In this document: positions 14,054 through 42,945 of the stretch, piece by piece
Position numbering within the stretch: the stretch's first letter is position 1
Layout: each line of letters begins with the position of its first letter
Source of the DNA: Herbiconiux sp. L3-i23
GTDB lineage: Bacteria; Actinomycetota; Actinomycetes; Actinomycetales; Microbacteriaceae
NCBI RefSeq assembly: GCF_023734115.1
Contig: NZ_AP025737.1
Span: forward strand, 1,178,001 to 1,242,000
Reading direction: 5' to 3'
DNA length: 64,000 bases
Translations under genes and position numbers: made by a program
The notes under the pieces: model-generated
What the model saw: only the letters and a program-made list of their open reading frames with translations
Databases searched by the model: none
Told to the model about the DNA's origin: nothing

Positions 14054-15865
14054 ATGCCGTACGTGCTGGGAATCGACGTCGGCGACGAGACGTCCGCGTC
14101 GGTCATCGAATACTTCGACGGGAGCGAGGGCGCTCCCCATCGCGCGGACCTCACCGACGACGGAGTCGGCGTGCTTCCCGTTCCGCGCATCGACTCCGAG
14201 GGCGCCCTCGTTCTCACCGCCGCTGAACCTGCGGATCCCCCCACCCTGTCCCTCGCCGGGTTCCTCGCCCGCGTCGGCGATGCCGTCCCGATCGTCGCCG
14301 GCGGATTCCTGGTACGGCCCGAAGACATCGTCGCCGCCCTCGTCCGGATCTGCGTCGACCGGGTGACCGCCGAACGCGCCGAGGCGCCTGCGGCGATCGC
14401 GGTGACCCGTCCGGCGGTATGGGGCGCCTACCGCGCGTCGCTCGTACGCTCGGCGCTCGACGCAGTGGACCTTCCGGACGCCCTGCTCATCGACAGTGCG
14501 CGGGCCAGTGCCGTCGCCGCCGACCGCTCGGGTGCCACCACGGCGCCGTCCGTCGTGGTCGTCGATCTCGGCGTCTCCGCCCTCGAGGTGTCGCTGTTCG
14601 CATCACCGAGCCGCTCCGGGGACGCAGCCGAGTCGAGCGTCGGTGGCGCGATCCGCCGCGTCGAACACCGCGACCGGGGCGTCGCGGCCTTCGACCGTGC
14701 ACTGGTCGCACACGTCGTCGAGGGAGTCGGCCTCCTCGACCCCCTCGACCCCGACCTCCGGGCGCCGCTCGAGGAGCTGCGACGCCGCTGCGCCATCGCG
14801 CGCGCCCAGCTCGACGTCGACGGCGAGAGCACCGTCGAACTCGTCGTCGGAGGCCACCGCGAGCGAGTGCGCATCGTGCGGGCCGAGTTCGAAGAGCTCA
14901 TCGAGTCAGAGGTGGCGGAGATCTGCGAGATCGTCGCGCCCTTCCTCGACGACGCCCCCGACACGGTGCCGGTGCTCCTCGCCGGCAGCGGCGCCGGGAT
15001 CCCGCTCATCGCCGAGATGCTTTCCGCACGCTTCGACAGGACGATCATCGTCGCCGACGACCCCCTCGGTTACGCATCGAGCGGTGCCGCTCTCGCAGCG
15101 ACCGAGCGGCAGTCTCCGACGGGCGCCCCGTCGACCGGCGATCGGGTGCACGACCTGCTGCCGGTGCGCACCGTACGCACCGCCCGACTCGACGCGGTAC
15201 TCGGCGCGATCGCCTCCGACGCCTCCGACACGGTGCGGACCCGGCGCCTCCGAGTGGTGCGGATCGGCTCGAGCGTCGCCGCGGCGGTCGCCGTCACCGC
15301 AGGAGCCGCCGTCGTACTCGCCCTGGCCGCGACGCCGGGGGAGCGTGCCGACGGGATCTCGGACGCGTCGCCGCTCAGCGATCGGCAGCTGGAGACCCTC
15401 GTCGCCGCCGCGAACGACGGCACCGCCCCCCTCGCTGACCTGCTCGCCCCGCCGGAGGGCGACGAGGCGGCACCGCCGACCGCGGCCGAGCCGACCCCCG
15501 GAGCGCGGCTCACCCCGGGAACGAAATCGACCCCGGCGCCGAGCCCGAAGTCCTCGTCGAAGAGTTCGGACGCCTCCACCGACGGGTCGAGGCCCGCCGC
15601 GCCGCCGCCGACGACGACGGACCAGACGCCCGCACCGCAGCCGACCACCGAACCCTCGTCCGACCCGCCGCCGGATCCGGTGCCGTCGGACACACCGCCC
15701 ACCGAACCACCACCATCCGAGCCGGATCCCACCCCCACGAACGAACCGGCCCCCGATCCGAGCCCCGCCCCCGCCCCCGAACCCGCACCCGAAGAACCGC
15801 CGGCCACCGACCCTGCTCCTCCCGAACAGGTCGCCGCCTCCGGAGCCGCTCCGGGTAGCGCCTGA
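14054..15865 (+). CDS. Hsp70-like actin-fold protein with membrane anchor and Pro-rich tail
   Basis: A 603-residue protein. Residues 1-370 are a DnaK-like ATPase fold: VLGIDVGDETSAS (phosphate 1), VVVVDLGVSALEVSLF (phosphate 2) and VLLAGSGAGIPLIAEML (adenosine loop). It lacks the DnaK peptide-binding domain. Instead there is one transmembrane helix (about 405-430) and a tail of about 150 residues rich in Pro, Thr, Ser and Asp. The ATPase is likely cytoplasmic and the tail outside. Start ATG 14054 follows TAGGAG; a longer frame from 13997 has no such site. It heads the ini-type cluster, 12 bp before the LuxR gene. Confidence 0.85.
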   Translation: MPYVLGIDVGDETSASVIEYFDGSEGAPHRADLTDDGVGVLPVPRIDSEGALVLTAAEPADPPTLSLAGFLARVGDAVPIVAGGFLVRPEDIVAALVRICVDRVTAERAEAPAAIAVTRPAVWGAYRASLVRSALDAVDLPDALLIDSARASAVAADRSGATTAPSVVVVDLGVSALEVSLFASPSRSGDAAESSVGGAIRRVEHRDRGVAAFDRALVAHVVEGVGLLDPLDPDLRAPLEELRRRCAIARAQLDVDGESTVELVVGGHRERVRIVRAEFEELIESEVAEICEIVAPFLDDAPDTVPVLLAGSGAGIPLIAEMLSARFDRTIIVADDPLGYASSGAALAATERQSPTGAPSTGDRVHDLLPVRTVRTARLDAVLGAIASDASDTVRTRRLRVVRIGSSVAAAVAVTAGAAVVLALAATPGERADGISDASPLSDRQLETLVAAANDGTAPLADLLAPPEGDEAAPPTAAEPTPGARLTPGTKSTPAPSPKSSSKSSDASTDGSRPAAPPPTTTDQTPAPQPTTEPSSDPPPDPVPSDTPPTEPPPSEPDPTPTNEPAPDPSPAPAPEPAPEEPPATDPAPPEQVAASGAAPGSA

Positions 15866-15877
15866 AGGTCTCCGCCG

Positions 15878-18607
15878 ATGGATGCGACCTCGCCGAGGGC
15901 GCAGTACCACAGTCGTCCCCTCGCCCGCGCCGCGAGGGAGTTCCTCGATCAGATCTCCGCAGTCCCGGGCGCTCGCATCGTCGTCGCAATCACCGGCGCC
16001 CGTGGCTCGGGCAAGAGCGCGTTGCTCGACGCGGTGCGCGACGAGCTGTCCGCCCATCGCACGTCGGCGAGCGCTCCGCAGGGCGACGCCCCGGCCGCGG
16101 AGGACGAGGTCGTCCTCGTCGACGACGCGCACCTGCTCGCCGAGTCGCGCATCCGAGCCCTCCGCGATCTCGTCGACGGGGGCACCGCGAGCGTCATCGT
16201 CGCCTACCCCCCGTTCCGCCGCTCGCCGGCCCTGCACGAGCTGTCCGTGGCTCTCGAACGCCACCGGCCCCCGATCGCCCTCGGTCCCCTCGACCGCAAC
16301 GAGATCGCGGCGGTGCTGGGCGTGCACGGCGCCGCCCCGTCGATCGGACTCGTGGAGGCGGTCGAGTACCAGACCGCCGGGATGCCGTGGCTCGTCACCC
16401 GGCTCGCCCGGCAGCTCGGCACCCACCCGGCCGTCTCCGATCTGAGCAGGGCCGCCGCCGCGGTCGTCGAGAGGCTCACCGTCGAGCTCGGCGCGCTCGA
16501 CCCCACCCTCCGAGACCTGCTCGTCGCGCTTGCGGTGGGGTTCGACTCGGCCGGCTGGATACCGCCGGGGGAGGAGGATCGGCGCCGCCTCGACGCGCAC
16601 ATCGCCGACGCCCGCGACGCCGGCCTGCTCGACCCCCACGGCACGGTCGTGCCCATCGTGCGCCGGGCCATCCTGCAGAGCACGCCCGCCTACCGCATTC
16701 GGGCCTTGCACGGGGCCCTCGTCGACGCGATCACCCGCACGGGAGACCTCGATCCCGACGTGGCACGAGAGCTCGCGAAGAGCCGGCTGCACGACGCCCG
16801 CGTCGAAGCGGTGCTCGTCGCCGCCGCCGACGCGGCGCTCGACCGCGACCCGGCCGTCGCCGCGGGGTATTACGACGCCGCCGTGCAGGCGGGCAGCGAC
16901 CCGATCGCCCTCGCCGCACGCCGCGCACGTGCCGCCCTCTGCGCGGGCGACGTGGCGCTCGCCTCCCGCTACGTCGACGAGCACCTCGCGCAGGCGGATG
17001 CCGACGCGGCGGCGGTCGCCGACGTCTCCGCCGCCCTGTGGGCCCACCGTGGTTTGCTCGAGCGCGCCGCGGCGAGCTACCGGTTCATCGGCGGGTCTTC
17101 GGATGCCCTTTCGAGCGCTCTCGCCGCCGTCACCATGCTGGCGGTGGGCGACGTGGACGGCGCAGAGCGCCTCTTCGCCGCGCTCCCGACCGTGGCGCCT
17201 CCGACTCTCGCCGGAGCGTCGATCGCGCTGATGGCGCGAGGGGTGCGGGAGTCGCTCGCGGGACAGGGGCCCGCCGCGCTCGGGTCGCTGGTGCGTGCCG
17301 CCGACGCGATGAGCGGCTCGAGGACCTTGATGCCGATGCCCGAGTCGCCCGCCGCGCTCTGCGCGATCACGGCCCTGCACCTCGGCGACCTCGACACGGC
17401 GGCGGCGGTGCTCGACACGGCGCTCGACACCCGGCACTGCGGAGCCGCCATGACGGCGCGGCACAGCCTGCTCCGCGCCTGGGTCTGGATGCAGAACGAC
17501 CGCCCCGACCTCGCGTCCCGCCTGGCCGAGGACGTCGCCGCCCGTGGTCCGCTGCTCGGACGCGACCAGTTCACGCTCGCCGCCCTGCGGGTGGCGGTCG
17601 CCCGTCGTGCGGACGATCTGCCCGGCCTCGTCGCCTCGTGGCGGCAGGCCCGCAACGTCCTGCTGCACGTGCCGGTCGACCTGTTCGGCCTGCTCCCGCT
17701 CGGCGAACTGATGATCGCCGCGGCACGCCTGCACGATCGCGCCCGAGCGCAGGCCGCGGCGGCGGAAGGGTGGCAGCTGCTCGAACGGCTCGGCTCGCCG
17801 CCCCTCTGGAGCGCCGCGATGCACTGGGCGGAGGTGCAGGCCGCGATCCTCGCCGAACGCCCCGCCGACCTCGCCCATCACGGCGGCGCCCTCACCGCCA
17901 TGGCCGATGCCAACCCGCTCGCCGCGGCGTGCGCGACGGCGGCGCGCACCTGGGCCGACGTCCTCACCGAGTCGATCGACACCCGGGCGGTCATCATCGC
18001 CGCCAAGGGACTCGCCGCGGTCGGGCGGACCTGGGACGGCTCCCGGCTCGCCGGTCACGCCGCCGCGCACGTCGACGACCGCAAGGAGATGGCGCGCCTG
18101 CTGGCCTGCGCCCGCGACATGCATCCGGGCAGCGGGCTCGCCCACCCCATCACCGAGCCCGTGCCCGCGGTCGGGGTCGACTCGGGCAGAGCCGCCGACG
18201 ACGTGCAGCTGAGCGCACGGGAGCGGGAGGTCGCCGCCCTCTTCGTCGAAGGCAGGAGCTACCGCGAGATCGGCGAGGCCATGTTCATCTCGCCGCGCAC
18301 CGTCGAACACCACATGGCCCGCATCCGCGGCCGCATCGAAGCCTCCACCCGGTCGGAGCTCGTCGCCCGACTGCGTCGCCTGCTGGGCGAACGCGGCCCT
18401 GACGGGAGTGGCGTCGGGCGCGGACTCGGTGGATCCGCCGTCGACGGCGACGGTCGCGGCCCGCATCGAGCCGGCCCCCACGGAGCAGCCCCGAACGGAT
18501 CCGGCATGGACGAGCGGAGCGCGGGCGGTGACGGGGTGCGTCTGCTCGGCGGTCCGGCGCGCGACGGTTCGGTTCCGCAGGGCGGGTCACAGGGGGTTCG
18601 GCGATGA
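15878..18607 (+). CDS. STAND/AAA ATPase LuxR-family regulator
   Basis: A 909-residue MalT-like regulator. It has an N-terminal P-loop ATPase (Walker A GARGSGKS near residue 40; Walker B EVVLVDDAHLL), a long helical repeat region (about 300-770) of TPR-like character for signal binding, and a C-terminal LuxR HTH (LSAREREVAALFVEGRSYRE, then FISPRTVEHHMARIRGRI, about 777-840). A Gly/Asp-rich tail of about 65 residues follows. Such proteins oligomerise on ligand plus ATP and bind direct repeats. It sits between the Hsp70-like gene and the IniB-like gene and is probably the activator of the ini genes. Confidence 0.9.
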   Translation: MDATSPRAQYHSRPLARAAREFLDQISAVPGARIVVAITGARGSGKSALLDAVRDELSAHRTSASAPQGDAPAAEDEVVLVDDAHLLAESRIRALRDLVDGGTASVIVAYPPFRRSPALHELSVALERHRPPIALGPLDRNEIAAVLGVHGAAPSIGLVEAVEYQTAGMPWLVTRLARQLGTHPAVSDLSRAAAAVVERLTVELGALDPTLRDLLVALAVGFDSAGWIPPGEEDRRRLDAHIADARDAGLLDPHGTVVPIVRRAILQSTPAYRIRALHGALVDAITRTGDLDPDVARELAKSRLHDARVEAVLVAAADAALDRDPAVAAGYYDAAVQAGSDPIALAARRARAALCAGDVALASRYVDEHLAQADADAAAVADVSAALWAHRGLLERAAASYRFIGGSSDALSSALAAVTMLAVGDVDGAERLFAALPTVAPPTLAGASIALMARGVRESLAGQGPAALGSLVRAADAMSGSRTLMPMPESPAALCAITALHLGDLDTAAAVLDTALDTRHCGAAMTARHSLLRAWVWMQNDRPDLASRLAEDVAARGPLLGRDQFTLAALRVAVARRADDLPGLVASWRQARNVLLHVPVDLFGLLPLGELMIAAARLHDRARAQAAAAEGWQLLERLGSPPLWSAAMHWAEVQAAILAERPADLAHHGGALTAMADANPLAAACATAARTWADVLTESIDTRAVIIAAKGLAAVGRTWDGSRLAGHAAAHVDDRKEMARLLACARDMHPGSGLAHPITEPVPAVGVDSGRAADDVQLSAREREVAALFVEGRSYREIGEAMFISPRTVEHHMARIRGRIEASTRSELVARLRRLLGERGPDGSGVGRGLGGSAVDGDGRGPHRAGPHGAAPNGSGMDERSAGGDGVRLLGGPARDGSVPQGGSQGVRR

Positions 18608-18634
18608 GATCCGCCCGACGACCGGGGGCCGGCG

Positions 18635-18676
18635 TAGGGGGACCGCCCCACCCCGTGCGGGCCCGATAGGGGGACC
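18635..18676 (+). promoter_or_regulatory. Direct-repeat operator candidate upstream of the IniB-like gene
   Basis: TAGGGGGACC occurs twice, at 18635-18644 and 18667-18676, 32 bp apart, about three helical turns. Both sit 110-150 bp before the IniB start. Asymmetric G-rich direct repeats on one face of the helix are what MalT-type activators bind; assignment to the LuxR protein is inference. Confidence 0.5.
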
Positions 18677-18784
18677 ACCGCCGATGTGCGTCCCGCCGGC
18701 GGCGACGAGGCTCGACAGCACCCGATCGCGTTGGACCCGCCACCCGATCACAACGAACACCCGAACCCGAAGGAAATGCCCATC

Positions 18785-19675
18785 ATGACCATCGCAACGA
18801 CCCTGCTCGACTTCCTCCTCAGCCTCTTCCGCGACCCCGAGGCCGCCGAGGAATTCGCCGCCGACCCCGAGGCGGCGCTCGCGAGCGCAGGTCTGTCGGA
18901 CGTGTGCGGCGACGACGTCGACGCCATCATGCCCGTCCTGCTCGACTACGGCCCCGTCGCCGTCGGCAACCGTTCCTACGAGACCGGCGGCAACCCCCAG
19001 GCCGTCGGTGGCAACCACTGGGACCCGGACGACGACCACGGACACGCGGTGCAGCAGCTCACCCACCTGGTGAACAACTATTCGTACACCTCGCTCGACG
19101 ACCGCGACACGGTGCTCGACCAGTCGGTCAACCAGAACATCTGGGCCAACGGCGACGTCACCCAGCTGTTCGACCAGGAGGCGAACATCGCATCCGGCGA
19201 CCGCGCCGTCGTCGCCACCGACGACGCCCGCGTCGACAACTCGGACGACCACTCGGTCGACATCGACGACTCGTTCAACGACGAGTCGGATCACTCGATC
19301 AACGACTCGTACAACGACAACTCCGACAACTCGGTCGACGTCTCCGACTCGTTCAACGACAACTCCGACAACTCGGACAACTCCGACAACTCGGTGAACG
19401 ACTCGTACAACGACAACTCGGACAACTCGACCGAGGACAACGACCTCATCGTCAAGGACAACGAGGTCAACGTCGGCAACGAGGACAACTCGGAGGACAA
19501 CGACGTCATCGTCAAGGACAACGAGCTCGACTTCTCCGAGGACAACGACGTGATCGTCAAGGACAACGAGCTGAACGTCGGCAACGAGGACAACGACGAC
19601 TTCACCTACGTCGACGAGCCCATCGTCGTCGTGCTCGACGAGCCCGTCCTCGAGGAGCCCGCACCGGTCATGTGA
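18785..19675 (+). CDS. iniB: IniB-like protein with D/N/S-rich repetitive tail
   Basis: A 296-residue protein. Residues 1-50 (TTLLDFLLSLFRDPEAAEEF, then DPEAALASAGLSDV) match the IniB N-terminal domain as I remember it (LIDYILSLF..., SAGL). A Gly/Asn middle follows. From about residue 150 the sequence is almost only Asp, Asn, Ser, Glu and Val, in repeats of DNSDNS, NDSYND and EDNDVIVKDNE. No signal peptide or membrane helix is visible. Start is ATG 18785, 9 nt after AGGAA; ATG 18776 overlaps that site. The tail is very acidic and probably disordered. Mycobacterial IniB is Gly-rich instead, so only the head is conserved. Confidence 0.82.
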   Translation: MTIATTLLDFLLSLFRDPEAAEEFAADPEAALASAGLSDVCGDDVDAIMPVLLDYGPVAVGNRSYETGGNPQAVGGNHWDPDDDHGHAVQQLTHLVNNYSYTSLDDRDTVLDQSVNQNIWANGDVTQLFDQEANIASGDRAVVATDDARVDNSDDHSVDIDDSFNDESDHSINDSYNDNSDNSVDVSDSFNDNSDNSDNSDNSVNDSYNDNSDNSTEDNDLIVKDNEVNVGNEDNSEDNDVIVKDNELDFSEDNDVIVKDNELNVGNEDNDDFTYVDEPIVVVLDEPVLEEPAPVM

Positions 19676-19678
19676 TCC

Positions 19679-19742
19679 TGAGGCGTCGCGCCTCACCCCG
19701 AGAGAACCCGACCCCGTCGCGCTCCGCGCCGACGGGGTCGGG
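19679..19742 (+). terminator. Two hairpins between IniB-like and IniA-like genes
   Basis: TGAGGCG-TCG-CGCCTCA (19679-19695) is a perfect 7-bp stem. It is followed by CCCGACCCCGTCG (19707-19719) and CGACGGGGTCGGG (19730-19742), a perfect 13-bp stem with a 10-nt loop. They begin 3 nt after the IniB stop. They probably end most transcripts or protect the iniB mRNA, giving more IniB than IniA/IniC. Confidence 0.75.
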
Positions 19743-19795
19743 CCCACGTCTTCAGCACGTCGGACCCACCCCACCCGATCCCCGAGGAGCACCCC

Positions 19796-21751
19796 TTGCC
19801 CGACCCCACGACCCTCATCGACGAAGCGATCCGACTCACCGACGCCGAAGGCCGCCCCGACCTGCGACGCCGACTCGAACAGGCGAAGGAGCGCTCGAAG
19901 GCCCGAAGCATCCGGGTGATGGTCGTCGGTGAATCCGGACAGGGCAAGAGCCAGCTGATCAACGCGCTCGTCGGCGCACCGGTCTGCCCGGTCGACGACG
20001 ACGTCGCGACCGCGGTGACCACGGTCGTCAGCTACGGGGAGACTCCCTCCGCGGTTCTCGTCCGGCAGTCGGGCGACGTCTCGGCGAGCGCGGAGCCGCC
20101 GCTCGAGCGCCGGCCCATCGGCCTCGACGAGCTCGCCCAGCACGTCTCGGCACGCGCGAATCCCGGCAACCGCAGCGGTCTCGTCGCCGCCGAGGTGGCG
20201 ATTCCGCGGGCCATCCTCGCGGGCGGACTCTCCCTCGTCGACTCGCCCGGAGTCGGCGGGCTCGAGTCGGCTCACTCGCTCGCGACCATGACCGCGTTGC
20301 CGACGGCCGACGCCGTCATCCTCGTCTCCGACGCGTCGCAGGAGTTCACCGAACCCGAGATGCAGTTCCTGCGACAGGCGCTGCGCGTGTGCCCCAACGT
20401 CGCCTGCGTGCTGTCGAAGACCGACATCTACCCGAGCTGGCGCACCATCGCCGACCTCGACCGACGGCACCTCGCCGAGCTCGGGCGCGACATCCCCGTC
20501 TTCGCCGTGTCGTCGCAGCTCCGCCTCGACGCCGCCCGCGACGCGGACCCCGTGCTGAACACCGAATCCGGCTTCCCCGCCCTCGTCGGCTACCTGCGCG
20601 GCGAGGTGCTCGGCCAGGTCGAGCGGCTGCACCGGCGCTCGCTCGAGCACGACCTGCGCGCCGTCGCCGACCACCTGACCCTCGCGCTGCAGAGCGAACT
20701 CAGCGCCCTCGTCGACCCGGCCGCCACCCCCGCCGTCGTCGCCGAGCTCGCGAACGCGAAGGAGCGCGCCGACGATCTCCGCAAGCGGTCGGCGCAGTGG
20801 CAGGTGACCCTGTCCGACGGCATCGCCGACCTCATGTCCGACATCGAACACGACCTCCGCGACCGGATGCGGGCGATCCAGCGCGAGGCCGACGCCGCGA
20901 TCGACGCCGGCGACCCCGGCCCCCTGTGGGAGTCGCTCGTCGATTGGCTCGAGACCCGCATCACGACCGCGGTCTCCGAGACCTTCATCTGGTCCGACGA
21001 GCGCGCCCGCTGGCTGGCCGGGCAGGTGGCGGAGCATTTCGGCGAGGAGGAGGTGCGTCTGCCGGCGGTGCACGTCGGCTCGGGCGACGGGGCGCTCGAC
21101 GCCGTCGAACTGGTGCCCGAATTGGACCGTGGACGGGTGAGCAGTCTCCAGAAGGTGCTCATCGGCATGCGCGGCTCGTACGGCGGCATCCTGATGATCG
21201 GTCTCGTCACCGGCATCGTGGGACTCAGTCTCATCAACCCGTTCTCCATCGCCGCCGGTCTGCTGATCGGCGGCAAGGCGTACCGCGACGACAAGGACGC
21301 TCGACTGAAGAAGCGGCAGTCGGAGGCGAAGATGCTCGTGCACAAGCAGATCGACGAGGTGCTCTTCCAGGTCGGCAAGGAGCTGAAGGACCGGCTCCGA
21401 CTCGTGCAACGCACCACCCGCGACCACTTCAGCGAGATCGCGGGGGAGCTGCACCGTTCCCTGGGCGACTCGCTTCTCGCCTCGCAGAAGGCGGCCTCGC
21501 TGTTCAACGCCGAACGCGAGCAGCGGACCGGGGAGATCCGCAAGCAGCTCGCCCGCATCGGCGCCCTGACGAAGGCGGTGACCGACGGGTCGCCGCCCGC
21601 CCGAGCGGCGTCCACCAGAACAGCGCCCACCAGAACAGCGTCCACCCGAACAGCACCGCCTCGCACAGCGCCCACCGGAACAGCGCCGCCCCGCACATCG
21701 CCGACACCGGCCGCGCCGACGGTGCCGCAGAGCGCGATGAGCGCCTCGTGA
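19796..21751 (+). CDS. iniA: IniA-like dynamin-family GTPase
   Basis: A 651-residue dynamin-like GTPase. G1 is GESGQGKS (45-52), G3 DSPG (near 150) and G4 SKTD (near 206). A membrane-inserting hydrophobic hairpin (GILMIGLVTGIVGLSLINPF) lies at about 462-492, flanked by long coiled helices. Mycobacterial IniA is a bacterial dynamin-like protein shown to remodel membranes. The start is TTG 19796 with AGGAG 6 nt upstream. The last 40 residues are a Thr/Arg/Pro repeat (TRTAPTRTASTRTAPP) absent from the core family. It overlaps the iniC start by GTGA. Confidence 0.9.
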   Translation: MPDPTTLIDEAIRLTDAEGRPDLRRRLEQAKERSKARSIRVMVVGESGQGKSQLINALVGAPVCPVDDDVATAVTTVVSYGETPSAVLVRQSGDVSASAEPPLERRPIGLDELAQHVSARANPGNRSGLVAAEVAIPRAILAGGLSLVDSPGVGGLESAHSLATMTALPTADAVILVSDASQEFTEPEMQFLRQALRVCPNVACVLSKTDIYPSWRTIADLDRRHLAELGRDIPVFAVSSQLRLDAARDADPVLNTESGFPALVGYLRGEVLGQVERLHRRSLEHDLRAVADHLTLALQSELSALVDPAATPAVVAELANAKERADDLRKRSAQWQVTLSDGIADLMSDIEHDLRDRMRAIQREADAAIDAGDPGPLWESLVDWLETRITTAVSETFIWSDERARWLAGQVAEHFGEEEVRLPAVHVGSGDGALDAVELVPELDRGRVSSLQKVLIGMRGSYGGILMIGLVTGIVGLSLINPFSIAAGLLIGGKAYRDDKDARLKKRQSEAKMLVHKQIDEVLFQVGKELKDRLRLVQRTTRDHFSEIAGELHRSLGDSLLASQKAASLFNAEREQRTGEIRKQLARIGALTKAVTDGSPPARAASTRTAPTRTASTRTAPPRTAPTGTAPPRTSPTPAAPTVPQSAMSAS

Positions 21752-23334
21752 CCGTCGCGTCCGACACCGTCGTCGCCCTGCTGAGGGAGGTACGACAGTG
21801 CTACGGCGACGAGGAGGAGGCGGCGCGCGCCGTCGACGCCCTCATCGAACGGCATCGGTCCCCGTTGCGGGTCGCACTCACGGGCATGGTGAAGGCGGGC
21901 AAGTCGACCCTCCTCAACGCGATCGTCGGTGAGGAGATCGCGCCCACCGACGCGGCCGAATGCACACGCCTCATCACTTGGTACGTCTACGGCGCGACGA
22001 GGCGCATCTTCGTGCACCTGCGCGACGGCTCTGTGCACCGCCTCGCGGTGGTGCGCACCCGCGGGCGGCTCGACATCCGGCTCGGCGGTTTCGACGCCGA
22101 CAGCATCGAGCGGATCGTCGTCGAGTGGCCCGCCACCGCGCTGCGCGGCATGACTCTCATCGACACTCCCGGCTTCGCCTCGCTCTCACCGGACGTCGTC
22201 GCCCGTTCGCGGCGCTTCCTGCTGCCTGAATCGGGGCCCTCCGAGGCCGACGCGGTGCTCTACCTGCTGCGCCACCTGCACGGCGTCGACCTCGACCTGC
22301 TCACCGCGTTCCGACGGGGAGCCGACGAACCCCGGTCGGCGGTCAGCGCGATCGCCGTGCTCTCCCGCGCCGACGAGATCGGCGCCGGGCGGCTCGACGC
22401 GCTGCTCTCCGCGCGCAACGTGGCCCAGCGTTACCGCGAGGAGGGCAGCCTGCAGGAACTGACCCTCGGCATCCTGCCCGTCGCAGGCCTGCTCGCGCAG
22501 AGCGCGACGACGCTCCGCCAGGCGGAGTTCCAGGCCCTGCAGAGCCTCGCGGACATGGATCGCCGCGCCCGTGACAGGGTCCTCCGCTCGGCGGACCTGT
22601 TCGTCTCGAGCGACGAGGTCCCGGTGCCCGCACCGACGCGGGCCCTTCTGCTCGACCGGCTCGGCATGTTCGGAATCAAGCTCGCGCTCGTGCTGCTGCG
22701 CAACGGCACCCCCGACGCCACCGCGTTGTCGGCCGAACTCACGAGGCGCAGCGGACTCGACGAGCTCGTCCGGTGGATCGACGAGCTGTTCGCGGACCGC
22801 GCCGAGACGCTCAAGATCAGGGCCATCACGAGCGGGGTCCGCGCGGTGCTCGAGGCCCGCCCCGTCGCCGACCGCGAAGCGATCGACGCCCTCCTCGAGC
22901 AACTCGACGTCGCCGTCCACGAGAGCACCGAGCTGCACCTCATCTCGGTGGCGAGAACCGTCGGCTTCACCTTTCCGCGCCGCCTCGCTGCCGAGGCGGA
23001 GCGGATCCTCGGCGGCCACGGCACCGACGAGCGCCGACGTCTCGCGCTCACCGACGACGCCGACGACGCCGAGATCCTCGCGGCGGCGGTCGACGCTCAC
23101 CGCCGCTGGCGTGCCGTGCAGACCCACCCGATGACCTCACCCGACGAGACGCAGGTCGCCGCCGCTGTCGCGCGCAGCTGCGAGGCGATCATCCTCGCCC
23201 ACAGTTCCGCTCACCGGGTGTGGCGGGGCGCCGCGGTGACCCCGCGCAGCCAGTCGCCGCTCGCCGGCGTCGCGCCGACCACGGCTCCCGCCGCCGCGAG
23301 CACCAGCCCGGCGATGAGCAGCGCGCGCAGATAG
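21748..23334 (+). CDS. iniC: IniC-like dynamin-family GTPase
   Basis: A 528-residue partner GTPase of IniA. G1 is GMVKAGKS (46-53), G3 DTPG (near 140), and G4 is a diverged SRAD (AVLSRADEIGAG). It has no obvious membrane hairpin, so it may work through IniA, as paired bacterial dynamins do. The GTG start overlaps the IniA stop (GTGA). The last 41 codons (23211-23334) run antisense into the neighbouring membrane-protein gene; that Ala/Ser/Pro tail may be a late extension by stop-codon loss. Confidence 0.87.
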   Translation: MTVASDTVVALLREVRQCYGDEEEAARAVDALIERHRSPLRVALTGMVKAGKSTLLNAIVGEEIAPTDAAECTRLITWYVYGATRRIFVHLRDGSVHRLAVVRTRGRLDIRLGGFDADSIERIVVEWPATALRGMTLIDTPGFASLSPDVVARSRRFLLPESGPSEADAVLYLLRHLHGVDLDLLTAFRRGADEPRSAVSAIAVLSRADEIGAGRLDALLSARNVAQRYREEGSLQELTLGILPVAGLLAQSATTLRQAEFQALQSLADMDRRARDRVLRSADLFVSSDEVPVPAPTRALLLDRLGMFGIKLALVLLRNGTPDATALSAELTRRSGLDELVRWIDELFADRAETLKIRAITSGVRAVLEARPVADREAIDALLEQLDVAVHESTELHLISVARTVGFTFPRRLAAEAERILGGHGTDERRRLALTDDADDAEILAAAVDAHRRWRAVQTHPMTSPDETQVAAAVARSCEAIILAHSSAHRVWRGAAVTPRSQSPLAGVAPTTAPAAASTSPAMSSARR

Positions 23335-23857: not shown

Positions 23858-24529
23858 TCAGTCGGTCAGGTGCGCTTCGAGACTGATCGCGCGGTGATCC
23901 GACGCGCCCGCCGGCAGCACGTCGACACGGTCGATGCGGTACCCGGTCGAGGTCACGAAGTCGAAGTACCCGGTGAAGATCTTGTAGCGCAGATACGTCT
24001 TCTCGGTGGTGCGCGTCAACCGGTAGCCCTCGGCGTCGAGCCGACGCTCGAGCCCCTTGATGAACCAGGGGTAGTTGAAGTCGCCGACCATCAGGGCGGG
24101 GATTCCCGGCGCGAGGCCGCGCATGCCCTCGTGCGCGGCGGCGATCTGCTTGCGACGCAGCGAATTCGACGCGGTCAACGGGGCGGCGTGGAACGACCCC
24201 ACGATGACCTCCCGCTCGCGCTGACGGTCGTAGAGGTGAGCGGCGAGCAGACGCTCGTTCGCCGGCGCCAGCACCCGGTCGTGCAACGACTTGTGCACGG
24301 CCAGCAGCTTCGTCGCGCGCACCTCGAACCGCGACTCCCGAACGTAGACGGCGAGGCCCAGACGGTTGTTGCGGGTCGCGTCCGCGAGCACCAGGTGACC
24401 GAGCGTGTCGGGCAGCTCCGCGGTCGTGACCTCCTGCAGGCACAGGACGTCGACCTCGTGCCGCTCGCTGATCGCGGCGAGCTCACCGACCGCCGCGTTC
24501 TTACGCAGGTTGTAGCTGACGACCCTCAC
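23858..24529 (-). CDS. Endonuclease/exonuclease/phosphatase family protein
   Basis: A 223-residue EEP-fold metal-dependent hydrolase. Conserved blocks are RVVSYNLRKN (Asn), DVLCLQEV (Glu metal ligand), GSFHA (His), MVGDFNYP (Asp, Asn) and GASDHRAIS (Asp-His pair). The fold includes ExoIII, DNase I and phosphodiesterases, so the substrate is open. No signal peptide is visible, which argues for a cytosolic role. The start is GTG 24529. The preceding intergenic space holds a 15-bp tandem repeat. Confidence 0.87.
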   Translation of the reverse strand: MRVVSYNLRKNAAVGELAAISERHEVDVLCLQEVTTAELPDTLGHLVLADATRNNRLGLAVYVRESRFEVRATKLLAVHKSLHDRVLAPANERLLAAHLYDRQREREVIVGSFHAAPLTASNSLRRKQIAAAHEGMRGLAPGIPALMVGDFNYPWFIKGLERRLDAEGYRLTRTTEKTYLRYKIFTGYFDFVTSTGYRIDRVDVLPAGASDHRAISLEAHLTD

Positions 24530-24585
24530 GCGAAACCCCTCGCTCCACCATGCCCGACCGCGTGTCCCATACCCCTCGCGCCCGA

Positions 24586-24715
24586 ACCCGACAGGACCGA
24601 ACCCGACAGGACCGAACCCGACAGGACCGAACCCGACAGGACCGAACCCGACAGGACCGAACCCGACAGGACCGGACCCGACAGGACCGAACCCGACAGG
24701 ACCGAACCCGACAGG
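24586..24715. repeat. 15-bp tandem repeat, nine copies
   Basis: Unit ACCCGACAGGACCGA repeats about nine times with one substitution (GGACCG in one unit) and no indels. It lies between two minus-strand genes. Because 15 is a multiple of three, all frames stay open and produce spurious pentapeptide ORFs. It is a likely variable-number locus. Confidence 0.93.
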
Positions 24716-24746
24716 ACAGTATGCCCCGACTGGAGGGCATGCCCGT

Positions 24747-25868
24747 TCACGCGGCGGATGCCTCGTCGACCGCCGGTGGCGACGCCGGTGGCGAGGCCTC
24801 CGGCTCGGGCGTGTTCCACGCCTTGATGATCGCCCAGCCGACCGCGGCGATCGGCACCGAGATCGCCGCCCCGACGATGCCGCCGAGGATCGTTCCGATC
24901 GTCAGAGCCACGAGGACCACGAGGGGGTGCAGCTTCAGCGACTGGCCCTGGACGATGGGCTGCAGGAAGTTGCCCTCGATCTGGTTCACCGCGATGACGA
25001 TGATCGTGACGATGATGGCGGCGGTGAGACCGTTCGTGAACAGTGCCACCAGCGCGGCGAGCACGCCCGCCGCCACCGCACCGATCAGCGGGATGAACGC
25101 GCCGAAGAACACGATGACGGCGAGCGGCAGCGCGAGCGGGACTCCGATGATCGCGAGGCCGGCGCCGATGCCGACGGCGTCGACGAAGGCGATGAACGCC
25201 GTCCCTCGCACGTACCCGCCGAGGGTCTTCACCCCGACGTGGCCGATGCGGACGCCGCGCTCGCGTCGCGCGCCGCGGAACGGGCGGAGGAGGAACGCCC
25301 AGATGCGGTCCCCGTCCTTCAGGAAGAAGAACAGCACCACGATGAACAGCACGAATCCGGTGACGAAGTTCGTGAACGCGGAGACCCCCGCCAGGGCGCC
25401 GGTACCGAACTGCGAGCTCGTGACGAAGTTCTGGACCTGTGGGAGCACCGCCTCCCAGTCGATCTGCTCGAGAGGGAGGCCGAGGCCGACGAGGTAGTCG
25501 TGCAGGTCGTTGTAGCCCTGAACGGCCGCGTCGACGAGGGAGTCCCACTGACCGCGCACCGCGAAGACGATCGCCGTGACGATCCCGCCGAAGATCACGA
25601 TCGAACCGATCAGCACGATCCACGTCGCGAGGATCGGGGCGAGCCCCCGGCGGCGCAGCCACATGATCACGGGCGCGAGAGCGGCGGCCACGATCGTCGC
25701 GATGAGCACCGGGATCACGACGAGCTTCACCTGGATCAGGGCGAAGACCACGACGGTGCCGACGGCGATGAGGATGAGGGCCTGAAGCGCCCGAGTGCTC
25801 CAGCGACCGAAATGATCGGTCCACAGCGCGCCGAGGCGGCCGCGCGTGCTCTCCGGGGAGTTGTCCAT
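24747..25868 (-). CDS. AI-2E family transporter
   Basis: A 373-residue polytopic membrane protein of the AI-2E/YdiK-PerM family, with about eight membrane segments. Family features include the hydrophobic VLFFFLKDGDRIW block, GGYVRGTAFIAFVDAVGIG and GNFLQPIVQGQSLKLHPLVV. Members export autoinducer-2 or act as ion antiporters, so substrate is unknown. ATG 25868 is preceded by TATGGT with a 6-nt spacer, indicating a leaderless mRNA; the longer frame to 25964 would remove that promoter. The tail is Ala/Pro/Glu-rich. Confidence 0.92.
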   Translation of the reverse strand: MDNSPESTRGRLGALWTDHFGRWSTRALQALILIAVGTVVVFALIQVKLVVIPVLIATIVAAALAPVIMWLRRRGLAPILATWIVLIGSIVIFGGIVTAIVFAVRGQWDSLVDAAVQGYNDLHDYLVGLGLPLEQIDWEAVLPQVQNFVTSSQFGTGALAGVSAFTNFVTGFVLFIVVLFFFLKDGDRIWAFLLRPFRGARRERGVRIGHVGVKTLGGYVRGTAFIAFVDAVGIGAGLAIIGVPLALPLAVIVFFGAFIPLIGAVAAGVLAALVALFTNGLTAAIIVTIIVIAVNQIEGNFLQPIVQGQSLKLHPLVVLVALTIGTILGGIVGAAISVPIAAVGWAIIKAWNTPEPEASPPASPPAVDEASAA

Positions 25869-25874
25869 GCGCTC

Positions 25875-25880
25875 ACCATA
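25875..25880 (-). promoter_or_regulatory. -10 element for the leaderless AI-2E transporter gene
   Basis: TATGGT on the minus strand, spacer GAGCGC, then ATG at 25868. No Shine-Dalgarno sequence is present. Confidence 0.5.
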
Positions 25881-26033
25881 CGGAGCGGATGCTGAAAGGA
25901 GCACAGAAGAAGGCGAAAGCCCGGCATGGGCGGATGTGGAACGGCGAGCGCTCAGCTGTCTCATGGCATTCCCCCGGAAGACAGGCGGAATCCGTTAACG
26001 CGGCCGACAAGTGCGGTTCTTACCCTCGAAGGC

Positions 26034-42788: not shown

Positions 42789-42814
42789 GGCTCCGGACGG
42801 GCGCCCGCCCGTCC

Positions 42815-42945
42815 CTGAATGAACCCGCCCCGGACGGACCCCCGCCCTGGACGAACCCGCCTCGGATGGGCACCCGCCCTGGATGAACCCGCCTCGGAGG
42901 GGCACCCGCCCTGGATAGGCACCCGCCCCTGGATAGACTCGGTGG
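42815..42945. repeat. 32-bp tandem repeat upstream of pgsA
   Basis: Three full 32-bp units (42815-42846, 42847-42878, 42879-42910; each of the form CTGGAYGAACCCGCCTCGGA plus 12 bp) are followed by two shortened units of 17-18 bp that begin CTGGATAG. The last one carries the -10 element of the next gene. Mutations between units are mostly substitutions. Confidence 0.88.
42934..42939 (+). promoter_or_regulatory. -10 element for the leaderless pgsA-like gene
   Basis: TAGACT, spacer of 8 nt, then ATG 42948. It lies inside the last degenerate repeat unit (CTGGATAGACTCGG), so the promoter evolved within the tandem array. Confidence 0.5.

Follow-up and report, generated by a model that had tools for sequence, protein, structure and literature searches.

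The window, i.e., the whole stretch of 64,000 nucleotides that was analysed, carries five same-strand genes in an operon-like arrangement, encoding an Hsp70-like protein, an IniR-like regulator, IniB, IniA and IniC (Table 1). The locus is a Micrococcales-type ini locus. The product of the second gene is called IniR-like only, since its score for NF038181 is lower than the equivalog cut-off (750 bits). Near residue 409 of its translated frame, after the ATPase domain, the Hsp70-like protein is hydrophobic over a single segment (maximum 2.39). Its homologues, as far as they were displayed, have a comparable layout (ATPase-like domain, hydrophobic segment, long Pro/Thr/Glu-rich tail).

IniA of the window is aligned over residues 7-585 with the structure of M. 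smegmatis IniA (6j72; phmmer E 2.5e-134); this likeness belongs to the neighbour gene, not to IniB. PADLOC matches the dynamins only, to LeoA/LeoBC. A minus-strand ORF of 955 aa across the region was set aside, being judged a by-product of high-GC codon structure. Further downstream, a 15-bp tandem array, CCGAACCCGACAGGA (9.1 copies, 98% matches), is found at 24582-24717, between the minus-strand ORFs 24747-25964 and 23858-24529; a 32-bp tandem repeat (3.4 copies) is found at 42808-42929.

Table 1. Features of the ini locus, with positions in the window.
Feature	Position	Strand	Evidence or remark
Hsp70-like ATPase domain and Pro/Thr/Glu-rich C-terminal tail	14054..15865	+	Pfam HSP70 25.9 bits (cut-off 20.6)
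IniR-like ATPase / LuxR-type regulator	15878..18607	+	NF038181 460.4 bits; Pfam GerE 48.4 bits
Candidate operator box TAGGGGGACCACCGCCGATG	18667..18686	+	CCGATG 104 bp 5' of iniB
iniB-like gene, 296 aa	18785..19675	+	ATG at 18785, stop ends at 19675
IniB head, residues 1-55, predicted four-helix bundle	18785..18949	+	NF038175; AlphaFold pLDDT about 90
Linker, residues 56-80	18950..19024	+	Variable, 13 to 119 residues (60 homologues)
Predicted helix, residues 81-98	19025..19078	+	AlphaFold pLDDT about 83
Second conserved block, residues 104-150, DDRDTVLDQSVNQNIWANGDVTQLFD...	19094..19234	+	27 of 47 columns at >=90%
Asp/Asn/Ser/Glu repeat array, residues 151-275	19235..19609	+	Composition; tandem repeats
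IniA-type dynamin-like GTPase	19796..21751	+	Dynamin_N 73 bits (cut-off 27)
IniC-type dynamin-like GTPase	21748..23334	+	Dynamin_N 43 bits (cut-off 27); start GTG 21748 or TTG 21745

The original prediction was that the protein has an IniB-like head, which a profile search could refute. The likeness held, since residues 6-54 match NF038175 (IniB_NTERM) with E 3.8e-21 and 74.8 bits, for a curated cut-off of 40. With NF038176, the family of Rv0340 / iniB*, the head region is common but the score (58.1 bits) is below the cut-off of 100; no D/N/S array is described for Rv0340 / iniB* in the part of the source available (PMC5760070). No Pfam family reaches its gathering score with the window protein. 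The whole genome contains a single IniB head. A phage or plasmid origin was rejected because the protein has no tblastn match among 50,697 phage and 72,556 plasmid records, and none in PHROGs. As for mycobacterial IniB (Rv0341), the gene is directly before iniA and iniC and an IniR-like regulator is nearby; the dnaK-like gene nearby is a likeness to the ini locus of M. smegmatis, as far as that locus is described in PMC5760070. Judged by profile and neighbourhood, the window protein is a genuine IniB with an unusual tail.

The alignment is made of 60 homologues, i.e., the window protein and 59 others from named loci, for which 80 sequences are available. Mean identity to the window protein is 57% for the head, 28% for the linker, 56% for residues 81-103, 68% for the block (residues 104-150) and 32% for the tail (residues 151-286). 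The length of the block is nearly constant (43-48) and that of the tail ranges from 69 to 261 residues. The block, with the consensus DDRDTxxDQSVNQNIWAxGDVTQxFDNxAxxASGDxAxAAG, is the best-kept stretch of IniB: 27 of its 47 columns are at >=90%, versus 14 of 55 for the head. It has no Pfam or NCBIfam model.

The comparison of tails among IniB-head proteins, which had been proposed together with a two-part design (a fixed head and a free tail), leads to the conclusions that: (i) the tails do vary; (ii) the block nevertheless surpasses the head in conservation, so that the fixed-head and free-tail reading needs correcting; (iii) the two-part design gives way to a succession of head, variable linker, helix 81-98, block and array.

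The repeat tail is as extreme as first claimed: residues 151-275 contain 71% D+N+S+E. The best 120-residue segment reaches 65% D+N+S, versus at most 34% in each of 278 proteins crudely called in 400 kb sampled from this genome. The acidity alone is not unique, since the D+E density is equalled by one of these 278 proteins. Neither is the low Lys+Arg content: the lowest 150-residue segment has 2%, versus 0.7% for the lowest background segments. Over its full length, the protein counts 76 acidic residues and 8 basic ones. From residue 56 onward, D accounts for 20%, N for 15% and G for 5%; the predicted difference from the Gly-rich tail of mycobacterial IniB is thus confirmed, the window tail being a D/N/S acidic array. 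Pfam gives no Ca2+-binding repeat family (RTX, TSP3-like) for the window protein at E 1 or better.

At the DNA level, the array contains degenerate tandem repeats at 19246-19402 (period 42) and 19434-19570 (period 21). Its codons are nearly uniform (GAC 33/34, AAC 27/27) and match the genome bias. A recent DNA-level expansion of the repeats was considered from this uniformity; the codon test says nothing on it because array codons follow the genome bias.

The acidity of the array is kept in 80/80 homologues, whose C-terminal halves range from -0.21 to -0.37 in net charge per residue, with 0 to 7 Lys+Arg. In other families the IniB tails are Gly/Ala/Leu-rich, His/Asp-rich or mixed. They are mostly poor in Lys+Arg (0-1.7% in 13 of the 15 proteins listed), the exceptions (4.8% and 5.4%) being one protein each of loci L081 and L082.

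The tail could be a neutral low-complexity spacer drifting in composition, the head alone being of importance. Tails that differ by family (Gly/Ala/Leu in mycobacterial-type loci, His/Asp elsewhere) and codons that track the genome bias agree with such drift. It has nonetheless but a slight chance, given a block that is better conserved than the head, an acidity retained in every homologue and, as described below, a block-plus-array module that is also encoded alone beside iniA.

AlphaFold, run with the 60-row alignment, gives a mean pLDDT of 57.9 for the window protein. Helices are predicted in the head at residues 3-16, 18-26, 28-34 and 42-55. Outside the head and helix 81-98, the model has no regular structure save a three-residue helix turn, and pLDDT is mostly <60 (about 50-56 for the block). 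A small folded head and a tail lacking predicted stable structure are supported by this model. The tail is nevertheless not merely a free one, since its module is also encoded on its own, with no head, beside iniA (see below).

The block and the array might also be ordered, as a fibre or a beta-roll (YadA-head-like, solenoid or functional amyloid) that acts as an assembly platform for the dynamins. The motif ASGDxAxAAGxD of the block points in this direction, together with weak matches to Pfam YadA_head (4/60 homologues at E 1 or better, best E 0.028; none for the window protein) and with an alternating V/I-D pattern that many of the arrays show. Set against them are the absence of strands in the modelled tail of the window protein, the mere two short low-confidence strands in the model of a headless protein (pLDDT 34.5, from 19 sequences) and the great variation of the array in length and order (69 to 261 residues). 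An ordered fibre of this kind is regarded as improbable.

For the head, a docking function had been suggested. It is plausible through a weak resemblance to LigA and borosin leaders. A profile of 14 heads matches the LigA-type leader of SonA in PDB (E 0.0037-0.0058), the seven SonA matches being constructs of one protein. VIA-align also ranks SonA first for the head (Z 3.7, rmsd 2.2-3.2 A over 45-48 residues); Foldseek gives no match to the model of the window protein at E 0.001 or better. Pfam LigA (PF07746) is the top weak match of the window protein, with E 0.11 and 13.1 bits for a gathering score of 25.3; it reaches E 1 or better in 6/60 homologues (best E 0.018). In both cases a small N-terminal helical bundle precedes a variable C-terminus, but the IniB head has four predicted helices, not five. 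SonA is reported to bind its enzyme mostly through the helical bundle (PMC8429565). A scan of five window proteins revealed no methyltransferase and no other family of RiPP enzymes. The resemblance is a lead for a docking head and not a proof of homology.

The IniB head was found in 5/9 genomes of the genus, 10/199 of Microbacteriaceae, at least 40/394 of the class (37 above cut-off) and 11/296 of the phylum (6 above cut-off), these samples sharing some genomes. The same 10/199 Microbacteriaceae genomes carry the head, the block and IniA (E 1e-87 or better); an eleventh has a distant IniA-like protein only (35% identity, E 2.6e-21) and no head. In the class, the block was found in at least 9/394 genomes, all 9 with the head as well. 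It must be noted that at most 17 and 14 candidates per genome were scored in the class searches and at most 13 in the IniA search, so that misses are possible in the class and IniA counts. Across the family sample, a close IniA is gained or lost along with the head and the block.

Among the 79 named loci, IniA is present in 75, IniC in 76, IniR-like in 76 and Hsp70-like in 66; most of the missing genes fall at contig ends, and the 13 loci lacking the Hsp70-like gene end before its expected place. One locus departs from this pattern: L135 (Microbacterium sp. Leaf151) has Hsp70, IniR and IniB, with no IniA or IniC within 20.6 kb. Two headed IniB genes are found in tandem before iniA in L091, L125 (Georgenia) and L104 (Arthrobacter). 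Among the loci of other families, L080 has a lone IniB-head protein of 977 aa with a Gly-rich tail (L080:9672-12602), with no Hsp70, IniR, IniA or IniC match in 20 kb. In L083, an IniB-head protein of 1548 aa with Gly/Leu/Asn-rich repeats (L083:4028-8671) adjoins an Hsp70-like gene; the sole IniA match of L083, at about 18 kb, belongs to another cluster, some 12 kb away.

In 25 of the 79 named loci, genes with the block and a D/N/S array, and no head, are located directly 5' of iniA, in twos in 10 of these loci and singly in the others. The loci concerned are those of Microbacterium and a few other lineages, where iniA and iniC are on the strand opposite to iniB. The headless proteins begin directly with D/N/S repeats, carry the block and have 1 to 6 Lys+Arg in 281-403 residues (n=19). 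When the profiles of 60 IniB and 19 headless proteins are compared by hhalign, the block and the first repeats are matched with probability 99.9 and E 2.3e-32. None of the 19 has an NCBIfam or Pfam match at E 0.1 or better. From their sequences, the headless proteins are an undescribed family lacking a Pfam or NCBIfam model, and the block and the array together make up a separate module. Two other block-only ORFs, in L134 and L149, both start at contig ends and are interpreted as truncated IniB genes.

The gene ending at most 700 bp 5' of iniA bears the block or the IniB head in 105/105 loci: 59 are headed with block, 36 have the block only and 10 have a head and no block. Among the block-only cases, L068 looks like an IniB gene broken by a frame change, its head and block being in different frames. 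These 105 come from 112 loci (6 lack IniA and 1 an IniA start); 8 of them have less than 2.2 kb upstream, at least five genomes appear to be counted twice because L053-L072 and L085-L163 overlap, and only the block-only cases are informative since the loci were picked by IniB hits. The position of the headless module beside the dynamin genes in these relatives suggests that it may serve those dynamins.

All 19 headless proteins lack a signal-peptide-like segment (maximum 19-residue hydropathy 0.42-1.29). This bears on the possibility that IniB and its headless relatives are exported non-classically and form an acidic layer at the wall or membrane, stabilising the envelope, perhaps with Ca2+. 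In favour of such a layer, mycobacterial IniB was reported in the cell wall and to lower permeability when expressed in M. smegmatis (PMC7350357), a role of the conserved IniB N-terminus in interaction or secretion was suggested by Boot et al. (PMC5760070), and the acidic array is conserved. On the other hand, the headless proteins have no hydrophobic export segment and keep the array without the head proposed as export signal; among the 80 IniB homologues, hydropathy exceeds 1.6 in only 5, and its maximum is within the helical head in 73. The exported-wall reading is weakened by this lack of export signals and is considered unlikely. IniB and the headless proteins would rather be soluble, since they have no clear signal-peptide-like or membrane segment; the reported localization of M. 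tuberculosis IniB in the cell-wall fraction (PMC7350357) is against it.

In Micrococcales, a box of the type TAGGGG-N6-12-CCGATG is found repeatedly in front of iniB and of headless-iniA operons. CCGATG is present upstream of iniB in 61/81 cases, of the first headless gene in 14/23 and of the second in 1/10, versus 15.9% of 3160 segments drawn at random from these loci; for the full box, the values are 31/81, 4/23 and 0/10, versus 0.7%, all these contrasts with random segments being inflated by the relatedness of the loci. The 23 headless leaders leave out 2 of the 25 (short upstream), and their starts were set by a composition rule, some being likely wrong. The box seems to be a Micrococcales feature, because it is absent upstream of all 19 IniB-head ORFs listed in L072-L084 and present in 10/19 of the loci L053-L071. 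No sigma-70-type promoter was found in 18400-19900.

The simplest reading of this box distribution is that iniB and the headless-iniA-iniC operon would form one regulon. Its controller is probably the IniR-like protein, which would bind the box; the IniR-like gene and the shared promoter box make induction by cell-wall inhibitors through such a regulator a candidate here. In mycobacteria, IniR is reported to bind upstream of iniBAC (PMC5760070).

The reading that we favour, tentatively and with a likelihood somewhat short of even, is that IniB has a helical head for docking and serves the IniA/IniC dynamins as a soluble, polyanionic scaffold or partner. The mechanism that we infer would be as follows: (i) under envelope stress, the IniR-like regulator would turn the ini locus on; (ii) IniB would stay soluble; (iii) block and array would act as a multivalent polyanionic partner of IniA/IniC, holding and concentrating them, or alternatively covering, until needed, the basic surface of IniA used for anionic lipids; (iv) through the head, all of this would be docked to another partner, the membrane-anchored Hsp70-like protein being a possibility. 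IniA binding to anionic lipids is reported to be salt-sensitive (PMC6715688); since salt disrupts this binding, a polyanion could hold the lipid surface of IniA or gather the dynamins.

A conserved basic partner for the array was sought in the dynamin C-terminal tails, which give none, and this counts against the dynamin-partner reading. In the window, iniA has 15/30-bp DNA repeats at its 3' end (21594-21718), which are translated into an Arg/Thr/Pro repeat tail; the net charge of this tail (+6) seemed to complement the array. Over 103 loci, the IniA tails have a median length of 25 and a median net charge of +1 (63 positive, 15 negative), thus a basic IniA tail is not a conserved feature. It was dropped as the array partner, the Arg-rich tail being private to the window IniA. 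The following also count against the dynamin-partner reading: (i) the head of L135 that lacks IniA/IniC, the head alone in L080 and the block-less Gly/Ala/Leu tails; (ii) the low AlphaFold confidence of the block and of the headless protein.

The head may instead dock to the Hsp70-like protein as the chief partner of IniB, the tail being its client or lid and the dynamins only co-regulated. Consistent with this, iniB of the 25 headless loci shares its strand with iniR and, where covered, hsp70, away from iniA-iniC; the large head protein of L083 adjoins an Hsp70-like gene, its IniA being elsewhere; and the Hsp70-like gene is absent only from loci that end before its place. However, the headless module adjoins iniA and not hsp70. 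Moreover, a dnaK-like gene sets M. smegmatis apart from the other mycobacteria compared, yet iniB is absent there, according to the part of PMC5760070 available. A chief partnership with Hsp70 is quite unlikely.

The dynamin-partner reading can be extended. The headed and headless D/N/S proteins would then be a new family of soluble, Lys/Arg-poor polyanionic dynamin partners that form a stress-induced condensate or fibre, storing, concentrating or nucleating IniA/IniC at the damaged envelope, while the head, a possible cousin of the RiPP-leader bundle, would tether them to the Hsp70-like protein. As a whole, this extension is rather doubtful.

IniB is a tuberculosis drug-stress protein. Besides the composition of its tail, the window protein differs from mycobacterial IniB by the extra block 104-150, which was not detected in the 12 other-family loci L073-L084, and by the separate headless relatives found in many Micrococcales loci. 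The iniBAC operon is described as isoniazid-induced (PMC5760070) and as linked to envelope permeability (PMC13413693). In the open-licence literature, nothing was found on IniB repeats/Hsp70 in Actinobacteria, on the IniB N-terminal domain in Arthrobacter or on iniBAC in Corynebacteriales; the papers found for IniB or IniA dynamins in Microbacterium/Arthrobacter look unrelated by title. The Micrococcales loci split IniB into its natural parts, i.e., a head, a conserved block and a stand-alone acidic array by the dynamin genes. They point to a protein family not yet described, and these natural parts, available in harmless species, offer a direct way to learn what IniB does for bacterial dynamins.
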